From assembly GCF_009192735.1 (NCBI RefSeq), contig NZ_VTFU01000003.1:434001-498000 (forward strand): 64,000 nucleotides of DNA, in the 5' to 3' direction. Below, one piece after another: positions 3,021 through 23,605 of the stretch. Each line of letters begins with the position of its first letter. Within the stretch, counting starts at the first letter, position 1. This DNA comes from Arthrobacter gandavensis (GTDB taxonomy: Bacteria; Actinomycetota; Actinomycetes; Actinomycetales; Micrococcaceae). The notes beneath the pieces are model-generated. The model was not told the origin of the DNA. It searched no databases and saw nothing but the letters and a program-made list of their open reading frames with translations. The position numbers and the translations under genes were made by a program.

Positions 3021-3269
3021 TCAGGCTGGCCTGTCCAAGACCTGCGGAGCGTCCGCGCGTTGGCTCAGGACATCCGTCAGTGCGTTGTACCAGTCAGCGG
3101 CTTCCAGCGACGGATACTCAGTGTCCAGCTGCTCATAAACGCGGTCCACCATCCCCTGCAATGTGGGTGTCGGGAGGGCTGCCAGCCCTGGGATGTCCGT
3201 CGGATCGGTGGGCAGTCCCATCGACCGCAGCTGGTCCGGAAAGAAAGGCTTCAGGTATCTGGTTCTCAC
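3021..3269 (-). CDS. Hypothetical 82-residue protein
   Basis: Small protein without a recognised domain, rich in Leu, Pro and Asp ('SMGLPTDPTDIPGLAALPTP', 'YPSLEAADWYNALTDVLSQR'). It starts with GTG at 3269, overlapping the stop of the upstream STAS-like gene in a 4-base GTGA arrangement. That implies translational coupling and is the main reason to accept it as a gene. It may be a partner of the STAS-like protein. Function unknown. Confidence 0.6.
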   Translation of the reverse strand: MRTRYLKPFFPDQLRSMGLPTDPTDIPGLAALPTPTLQGMVDRVYEQLDTEYPSLEAADWYNALTDVLSQRADAPQVLDRPA

Positions 3270-21870: not shown

Positions 21871-23190
21871 CTAGACCGCCTTTACCACCGGCAAATCCGA
21901 CCATTCGGTGGTGAAGCGCGGCGAGGCGAACTTCCGGGCCATGGTCCAGTCGGGTTTCGCCGAGGCCATTCCAGCCAGGCCCAGGCCGATGCTGGCAGCA
22001 CCGTACTTGTCAGTAACCTGCGCCAGCAGCGGGCCGATGTCCGGCTGCTCCGGTCCGGCATCAAAGAGGTCGAACACCGGCTCCGCCCCCGCAGGGGACA
22101 GGCCGGTGAGCATAATGCCGGCCTTGGCGTAGGGGGCGCCCTCCACCACCTGCGGGTCCATGGCGGTGATGGCTGCCCGGGTGAGCAGCAGGGGATCGGC
22201 GGTGGGCCGCTCCAGCCGGACCGTAGCCGAGGGGGAGGACGCCGCCGTCGTATTGAACCGGGAGGTGGCGGCGAAAACCGTCATCACGGTGGCGAGCTGC
22301 TCCTCCTTTGCCAGCCGGATGGCTGCTTTCTGCGCGTAGAGGCTCATGACCTGCCGCATGGAGTCGCGGGTGGTCACCGGCGTCGCGAAGCTGCGCGAAA
22401 AGAGCACCTGCTGCTTGTCCGCGGATTCGGTCTCCATCGGGATGCACGCGGTGCCGTTCAGCTCCAGCACCGTCCGCTGCAGGACCACCGAGAATTTGGC
22501 GCGGATGACGGCGGGATCGGCGTCGCGCAGGTCCGCGATGGTGTGGATGCCCAGCGCGTTCAGCCGGGTGCCGTTGCGCGCGCCCACACCCCACAGCCCG
22601 GTGACCGGGACCCGGGACATGATGGTGTCGACGGCGGCGGGACCGAGGGTGTCCAGGTTGCAGACCCCGCCCAGGTGGGGATTCTGCTTGGCAATCCGGT
22701 TGGCGAACTTGGCCAGGGTTTTAGTGCTGCCGATGCCCACGCAGACCGGCAGCCCAATGTTCCGGGCCACCGCCGCCCGAATCTCGGTTCCGCGGCTGCG
22801 CAGCTGTTCGTCGGTGCCGAACAGGTGCAGGAAGCACTCATCGATGGAGTAGATTTCCTGCTCCGAGGAGAACCGGGCCAGCAACTGCATCACCCGCGAA
22901 CTCAGGTCCCCATACAGTTCATAGTTGCTGGAGCGCTGCACCAGGCCCAGCTTCGGCGCAGCTTCGGCCAGCTTGAACCACGGTTCTCCGGTCTTGATGC
23001 CCAGGGCCTTGGCTTCGTCGGAGCGGGCCACCACGCAGCCGTCATTGTTGGAGAGCACCACCACGGGAATGCCCGCCAGTTTTGGATCGAACACGCGCTC
23101 GCAGGAGACATAGAAGCTGTTCACATCCACCAGGGCGAAACGCTGCTGTTCAGCTAAACGTGGTGCAGGCACCGGGTCACCACGCCCCAC
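21871..23190 (-). CDS. umuC: Translesion DNA polymerase V catalytic subunit (UmuC-type)
   Basis: 439-residue Y-family polymerase. The catalytic carboxylates are seen in '[13 protein letters not shown]' and '[10 protein letters not shown]', with '[20 protein letters not shown]' between. The HhH '[20 protein letters not shown]', the little-finger domain and a UmuC-type C-terminal extension follow. It performs error-prone synthesis past lesions when loaded with UmuD'2 in E. coli. The start is GTG at 23190 (or GTG at 23172), inside the end of the upstream umuD-like gene, so the two are translationally coupled. Expression should be SOS-controlled from the box at 23590-23605. Confidence 0.93.
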
Positions 23191-23576
23191 ACGGACAGCT
23201 CGGCCGGATCCGGCACGCGAATGTCCGTGGACCCGGGGCTGTCGGCATGCAGGAAGATGCCGTGTCCGGTAAGCAGCAGCCTCCGGATGGTCAGTTCACC
23301 GTTCAGGACGGCGACGACGACGGATCCGTCCTTGGGCGTCAGGGAACGGTCCACGATAATCTCGTCACCGTCACTGATGCCGGCGCCGTCCATGGCGTCA
23401 CCGGAGACCCGCATGATGAAGGTGGACGTGGCGTCCCGAATCAGATGCCGGTTCAGGTCGATTCCGGCGTCGTAATAGTCCTGGGCCGGAGAGGCGAAGC
23501 CGGCCGGCAGGGTGGACCGGCTTGCTCCGGTTTCGCCGCCGGAACGCGGCGAAGGGTTCGCTGAGAAGACCGCCAT
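23154..23576 (-). CDS. umuD: UmuD-like S24-family protein lacking catalytic Ser and Lys
   Basis: 140 residues aligned along E. coli UmuD: the cleavage region A25-G26 in '[20 protein letters not shown]' matches UmuD C24-G25 FPSPAxDY, and the core reads '[20 protein letters not shown]'. In UmuD the corresponding box is SGDSM with catalytic Ser60. Here that position is Ala61. The general base Lys97 in 'TVKKL' is Arg98 in 'TIRRL'. Both catalytic residues are therefore replaced, while the cleavage site is kept, so self-cleavage is not expected. It may act as an uncleavable partner of UmuC or be cleaved in trans. First gene of an SOS operon. Confidence 0.9.
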
Positions 23577-23589
23577 GACCCGCCTCTCC

Positions 23590-23605
23590 TAGAACACACT
23601 TTCGA
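23590..23605 (-). promoter_or_regulatory. LexA (SOS) box of the umuDC operon
   Basis: TAGAAC-acac-TTTCGA matches the Gram-positive/actinobacterial SOS consensus TCGAAC-N4-GTTCGA at 10 of 12 positions, and is centred about 21 bases upstream of the umuD-like start. This predicts LexA repression and DNA-damage induction. Confidence 0.75.

Follow-up and report, generated by a model that had tools for sequence, protein, structure and literature searches.

A UmuD homolog of Arthrobacter gandavensis with both catalytic residues replaced, and the probable loss of autoproteolysis in its lineage

The umuD-umuC locus and the missing dyad

The window analyzed here, a stretch of 64,000 nucleotides from Arthrobacter gandavensis (contig NZ_VTFU01000003.1, positions 434,001 to 498,000), carries a umuD-like gene and umuC, with the following features (window positions, all on the minus strand):

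23154..23576, minus strand: umuD-like gene, 140 aa from an ATG start, S24 fold, with Ala61 in place of the catalytic Ser and Arg98 in place of the catalytic Lys
23502..23576, minus strand: N-terminal arm, residues 1-25, ending in L-P-A, with Gly26 next; hydrophilic, and of very low confidence in the predicted model
23394..23396, minus strand: Ala61 codon, position of the catalytic Ser60 of E. coli UmuD (by alignment, counted from the ATG at 23576)
23283..23285, minus strand: Arg98 codon, position of the catalytic Lys97 of E. coli UmuD (by alignment, counted from the same ATG)
23590..23605, minus strand: SOS (LexA) box TCGAAAGTGTGTTCTA, just 5' of the umuD start
21871..23190, minus strand: umuC, Y-family polymerase; Pfam IMS, IMS_C, IMS_HHH and DUF4113, with NF002955 below its cut-off

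The product of the umuD-like gene scores 135.4 bits against NF007621 ("translesion error-prone DNA polymerase V autoproteolytic subunit"; cut-off 110) and 78.1 bits against the Peptidase_S24 domain PF00717 (Pfam cut-off 23.3). A Foldseek search with its predicted model returned 1ay9 (E 2.3e-8) and 1umu (E 3.5e-8) as the top matches; the nearest solved relatives are E. coli UmuD and UmuD', and the core of the predicted model has the UmuD' fold. At its 3' end umuD is overlapped by the umuC frame, in which the SIDE motif is kept. The SOS box deviates from TCGAAC-N4-GTTCGA at two of 12 positions, a match that none of 20 shuffled sequences equalled, and it closely resembles TCGAAACTGTGTTCGA, the box found at this genome's lexA locus. 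The original prediction of an intact gene, coupled to umuC and placed behind an SOS box, is borne out by this frame, overlap and box.

In the phmmer alignment to the E. coli UmuD and UmuD' chains, which is ungapped from the cleavage site to past the Lys, Ala61 falls at Ser60 and Arg98 at Lys97, exactly as predicted, and the Ser-Lys dyad of autoproteolytic S24 peptidases is absent. The prediction had allowed for other Ser and Lys residues taking over the active site; such an alternative dyad is implausible, because K82, the sole Lys of the protein, lies outside that site. A sequencing error, also allowed for, is very unlikely, because the Ala/Arg pair recurs in eight genomes and also in L033 and L034, two named loci with UmuD cores that match two of these eight exactly. 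By sequence and predicted fold the protein is thus a member of the UmuD family, and, judging from its residues, not an autoproteolytic one.

A UmuD match of at least 178 bits was found in all 29 genomes of the genus searched, and two of them carry a second, Ser/Lys copy. Whether Ala and Arg are fixed, as the prediction had asked, can be answered by halves: Arg is present in all 29, while the Ser position holds Ala in eight and Ser in 21. The eight Ala/Arg genomes form the window clade, with 86-100% identity to the window protein; one of them has a second, short UmuD-like match (G018:C1:433030-433155, residues 17-58, in a 75-codon frame) that ends before the Ser position. The cleavage region FASPAQDY, which the prediction had described as kept, is indeed present; however, it belongs to the product of cleavage, and both classes of UmuD described below conserve it, so it has little bearing on cleavage. 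Residues P3-P1 are the informative ones, and in the window clade they read L-P-A, followed by Gly at P1' in all eight distinct cores (LPA-G), which, as a sequence, comes close to the site of UmuDs with an intact dyad.

Two classes of UmuD and the origins of Arg

In all, 223 loci were collected, of which 221 had a UmuD match at the threshold (the exceptions were L001, a LexA, and L092, a weak match), giving 192 distinct cores; 191 were classified by the residue at the Lys position, and L091, whose core ends before it, was left out. The resulting split into 111 Lys and 80 Arg cores is no population frequency, because the genomes had been picked by similarity to the window protein. In the Lys class the Ser position holds Ser in 110 cores and Ala in one, whereas in the Arg class it holds Ser in 52, Ala in 24 and Gly in four, so that Ser is lost in 28 of 80. 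The one Lys-class core without Ser is a UmuD of Propionibacteriaceae (L055), which has kept Lys and has Thr at P1.

The classes differ equally at the cleavage site. P3 is Val or Ile in 108 of 110 Lys/Ser cores, but in only one of 80 Arg cores, and P1 is Ala or Cys in 109/110 (Ala 106, Cys 3; the remaining core has Val) compared with 17/80 (all Ala; the rest have Ser, Met, Thr, Arg, His, Phe or Ile). Nearly all Lys cores accordingly carry a V/I-x-A/C site before Gly, while the Arg class as a whole lacks the V/I-x-A context. Three further positions, chosen after the class comparison had been seen, behave similarly: Asn113 is found in 108/111 Lys cores vs 6/80 Arg cores (lost in 74), Thr96 in 110/111 vs 18/80, and Tyr or Phe at 116 in 109/111 vs 21/80, with 113 and 116 lying in an indel region where the alignment is less sure. 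Even those Arg cores that keep Ser have P3 Val/Ile in none of 52 cases and have lost Asn113 in 46. Among 24 loci fetched later, several of them from genomes already in the survey, 20 belong to the Lys class, all with Ser and Asn (L246 has an internal stop), and four to the Arg class, all without Asn and with Ser, Ser, Ala and Gly at the Ser position. In the titles and the openings of abstracts listed by searches of one open-access library, we found no report of a dyad-less UmuD in Micrococcaceae.

Two oddities of the collection deserve mention. A Micrococcaceae-type umuD occurs in a record titled Sporosarcina (Bacillota; L039), on a contig that is probably contamination. UmuDs of another family of the order (L237-L245 and L247) lie in frames that run 219-259 aa from stop to stop and exceed most others in length, with Ser and Lys intact.

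On UmuD trees the Lys/Arg state changes three times, irrespective of whether the dyad columns are included or masked, and on a joint tree of UmuD and UmuC four times; the Ser position changes state 11 times on the UmuD tree. The joint tree comprises 81 rows with a full-length UmuC (41 of 65 such Arg rows and 40 of 79 Lys rows). On it, the hypothesis of a single clade is rejected for the Arg rows as a whole (p 8.9e-5), for the main Arg class joined with the group g32 (p 4.6e-5), for the main class with L040 of Pseudoclavibacter (p 5.2e-5) and for g32 with L040 (p 5.2e-4), but not for the main class by itself (p 0.32); apart from "all Arg rows", these groups were named after the tree had been seen, the trees are quick ones, and L040 sits on a long branch. 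Because each pairwise union is rejected (p 5e-4 or less), we favour at least three origins of Arg from Lys: in the main class of Micrococcaceae, in g32, which is nested in Lys-class relatives, and in L040. On the UmuD-only tree with the dyad columns masked, the well-supported branches would by themselves still allow a single origin. Ala replaces Ser, and Asn is absent, in L040 and in each of the five g32 cores.

N-terminal arms, UmuC partners and SOS boxes

The arm preceding the cleavage site is hydrophobic in the Lys/Ser class (median hydropathy 0.54; 99 of 110 cores used) and hydrophilic in the Arg class, with medians of -0.23 in Arg/Ser, -0.30 in Arg/Ala and -0.71 in Arg/Gly cores (77 of 80 used); a rank test of this difference is not counted as evidence, since distinct cores share ancestry. 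The predicted confidence of the arm is about 41 in the window protein, vs about 60 in one Lys-class relative. Relaxation of the arm as a sign of lost cleavage was considered and ruled out: the arm of the window clade has a dN/dS of 0.311, but arms outpace cores in the Lys class as well, with arm/core pN ratios of 1.5-5.4 in five Lys groups and 1.2-2.7 in five Arg groups. In the window clade the core of UmuD evolves with a dN/dS of 0.050, i.e. under strong purifying selection, and umuC with 0.078.

Most Arg-class members have an arm; two have lost it. L040 is an Ala/Arg member whose frame starts with a GTG at 3067, at the P3 position; GGAGG and an SOS box with one mismatch precede it. From the in-frame stop upstream to the core there is no other ATG, GTG or TTG. 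The product, MVAGFPSPAQDY..., is 118 aa long, and the gene is followed by a umuC frame. Read in this way, L040 encodes a protein of UmuD' size directly, with its start at the cleavage site. The frame of L051 begins with Met-Phe immediately 5' of the core, and no SOS box is recognizable there. A known counterpart is HumD of phage P1, a UmuD'-like protein made without cleavage, which begins Met-Gly-Phe-Pro-Ser, at the end of UmuD'. L040 shares such a start, whereas the window protein retains its arm, with 25 residues before Gly26, and scores 68.5 bits against the HumD model, below its cut-off of 120. HumD has an annotated LexA site upstream; it is a phage gene, with no umuC in the stretch read, and by eye a Lys (IKR) is kept, as is a Ser close to the position of the active site.

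Glutamicibacter-type members have a Met immediately before the Gly, which might suggest direct synthesis of UmuD'. As a general explanation this was dropped: the preceding residues are conserved (QGPVQAVSAM, QGPVGAVEAM), there are possible starts further upstream, and no Shine-Dalgarno sequence was seen before this Met. In four proteobacterial Ser/Lys UmuDs (L061, L062, L070 and L072) a possible start would leave a seven-residue arm before Gly (MSHCIPA, MSHGVPA, MAHTIPA and MSHRVPA, respectively); longer starts are present too. Many Arg-class arms open with MFGMDLP or VFGMDLP (L044:2983-3387 and related loci), and those of the window genus with MAVFS or MPVFS. By analogy with clamp motifs, this conserved tip might bind a partner, e.g. 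the sliding clamp.

Both classes usually have umuC at hand. It lies directly behind 61 of the 80 Arg cores and 100 of the 111 Lys cores; within the stretches read, the UmuC frame is full-length in 65, short in four (L042, L082, L086 and L130) and not found in 11 for the Arg class, and full-length in 79, short in 22 and not found in 10, some of them at contig ends, for the Lys class. The SIDE motif is present in 65/65 full-length UmuCs of the Arg class and 75/79 of the Lys class, the C-terminal tails of twelve UmuCs follow a like pattern in both (L104 excepted), and no UmuC position is fixed at 90% or more in Lys-class partners while being kept in at most half of those of the main Arg class. 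A solitary UmuD was rejected for six of the 11 cases: there a whole-genome search (L038 in G252, L088 in G079, L129 in G210, L136 in G052, L139 in G245 and L156 in G208) found a umuC match about 4-12 kb away, and since it is on the same contig, these umuDs are separated rather than orphaned. In three of 19 Arg-class genomes searched with UmuC (G079 with L134, G137 with L141 and G215 with L130), umuC looks split, broken or interrupted by stops while umuD is open; the match in G079 lacks the first 28 residues, a remnant of which adjoins umuD, and looks split.

In the Arg class 59 of 80 cores follow an SOS box with at most two mismatches, compared with 48 of the 109 Lys/Ser cores, which include proteobacteria; shuffled sequences average about 4.7 mismatches. 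The best match has four or five mismatches in g32, L161 and L166. Seven loci with an Ala/Arg umuD (L111, L112, L124, L143, L151, L161 and L166) show no recognizable box in the 200 bases 5' of the core.

An uncleaved UmuD'-like subunit and its alternatives

In E. coli, UmuD undergoes self-cleavage on RecA filaments; once cleaved, it releases UmuC and forms Pol V. This self-cleavage is the textbook delay that holds the error-prone polymerase off until damage persists. UmuD K97A blocks cleavage and UmuC release and strongly inhibits mutagenesis (PMC4552617), UmuC is retained at the membrane by this non-cleavable variant (PMC3901139, PMC4552617), and S60A lowers mutagenesis (PMC3901139). Because these single changes impair mutagenesis, an Ala/Arg UmuD would be expected to be inactive unless its arm had ceased to inhibit. 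The uncleaved truncation UmuD 18 supports low but detectable mutagenesis, above that of other non-cleavable UmuDs though well below that of UmuD and without UV resistance; its authors explain the remaining mutagenesis by freer arms that partly mimic UmuD'. UmuD 3A is termed a UmuD' mimic in the same text (PMC5342242), and a 2026 survey describes the arm of UmuD' as inserted into UmuC (PMC12926913).

The window protein resembles E. coli UmuD and UmuD' in its fold, its score above the NF007621 cut-off, its SOS box and its overlap with umuC, but unlike UmuD it has both catalytic residues replaced and a hydrophilic arm, and the Arg class at large has lost the cleavage-site consensus and the conserved Asn. 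With LexA it shares the S24 domain; however, its 140 aa hold no DNA-binding domain, it scores below the LexA model cut-off, and the dyad of this genome's own LexA is intact. UmuDAb of Acinetobacter is likewise a UmuD relative outside the E. coli role, but it is reported to be a repressor that needs its N-terminal domain, and Pfam finds no such domain in the window protein.

We consider it probable that the window UmuD belongs to an Arg-class lineage that gave up S24 autoproteolysis and acts as an uncleaved UmuD'-like subunit of Pol V, controlled mainly at transcription. What can be read from the sequences is a changed dyad, the class-wide loss of the cleavage consensus and of Asn, a core under strong purifying selection, and an SOS box and UmuC that are mostly kept. 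Beyond this, the Arg-class protein would stay uncleaved, its arm would no longer dock on the globular domain, and the full-length form would, as soon as it is translated, take the part of UmuD' towards UmuC; LexA would then control Pol V through transcription, perhaps together with RecA and the turnover of Pol V components, and the switch from UmuD to UmuD' would be absent. The hydrophilic arms of the class, the low-confidence arm of the predicted window model and the two arm-less members point to an arm that may no longer inhibit, while the activity of the full-length protein is inferred, uncleaved E. coli UmuD yielding little mutagenesis or none. Several observations count against this reading: non-cleavable UmuD is impaired in E. 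coli, even the free-armed UmuD 18 falls well short of UmuD, 52 of 80 Arg cores keep Ser, the LPA-G site of the window clade resembles that of the Lys class, UmuC is not found or looks broken in some genomes, and two Arg groups have no recognizable SOS box.

The original prediction had offered two roles, a constitutively uncleaved regulator and a substrate cleaved in trans. The former is supported at the level of the lineage, where Lys-to-Arg goes together with the losses at the site, of Ser and of Asn, but the hydrophilic arms and the arm-less members lead us to picture an activator like UmuD' rather than a restraining regulator. An uncleavable full-length form that checks Pol V or the replisome after damage, as uncleaved E. 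coli UmuD does, is an improbable alternative: non-cleavable E. coli UmuD acts so (PMC3901139, PMC4552617, PMC5342242), most Arg-class members retain arms, and umuD persists in some genomes whose umuC looks split or broken. However, the UmuC of the window clade, itself under strong purifying selection, would then have no activating subunit, and Arg-class arms lack the hydrophobic make-up of the Lys class and are gone altogether in L040 and L051.

Removal of the arm by LexA or another S24 protein acting on a dead substrate, which would again yield UmuD', we regard as unlikely, though ahead of the restraining role. The LPA-G site of the window clade would suit such cleavage, E. coli UmuD S60A is cut in trans within heterodimers (PMC5342242), the LexA of the window genome has an intact dyad (SGDSM/TVK) with an IAA-G site of its own, and the second UmuD in two genomes of the genus is of the Ser/Lys type. 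Yet in the window genome and the other seven of the clade, Pfam finds a single LexA-like match as the only S24 protein besides the UmuD-like one, the decay of P3 and P1 over the whole lineage argues against conserved cleavage, and arm-less members need none. Least probable of all seems a slow self-cleavage of the Ser/Arg members with Arg as the general base, for which the change of Ser to Ala would represent secondary losses of little functional weight. Since 52 of 80 Arg cores keep Ser, weak self-cleavage is conceivable in them, and a Lys-to-Arg variant of LexA reportedly still cleaves at high pH; against this, the same cores lack Val or Ile at P3 without exception and mostly lack Asn113.

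Returning to the uncleaved UmuD'-like subunit, its wider form, to which we would give about equal credence either way, is that Micrococcaceae and at least two other lineages independently removed the post-translational switch of Pol V, with UmuD made active, the arm lost or freed for some other use and transcription left as the main switch. The change of Lys to Arg, the loss of the site and of Asn, and the change of Ser to Ala or Gly would then be a repeatable path from a protease to a structural subunit.

Taken together, the results suggest that Arthrobacter and its relatives control their mutagenic polymerase without the self-cleavage step of UmuD. If this is true, the name "autoproteolytic subunit" of NF007621 is wrong for part of its matches, a large lineage without UmuD self-cleavage shows that this step is dispensable, and its purpose could be tested by comparing sister species with and without it.
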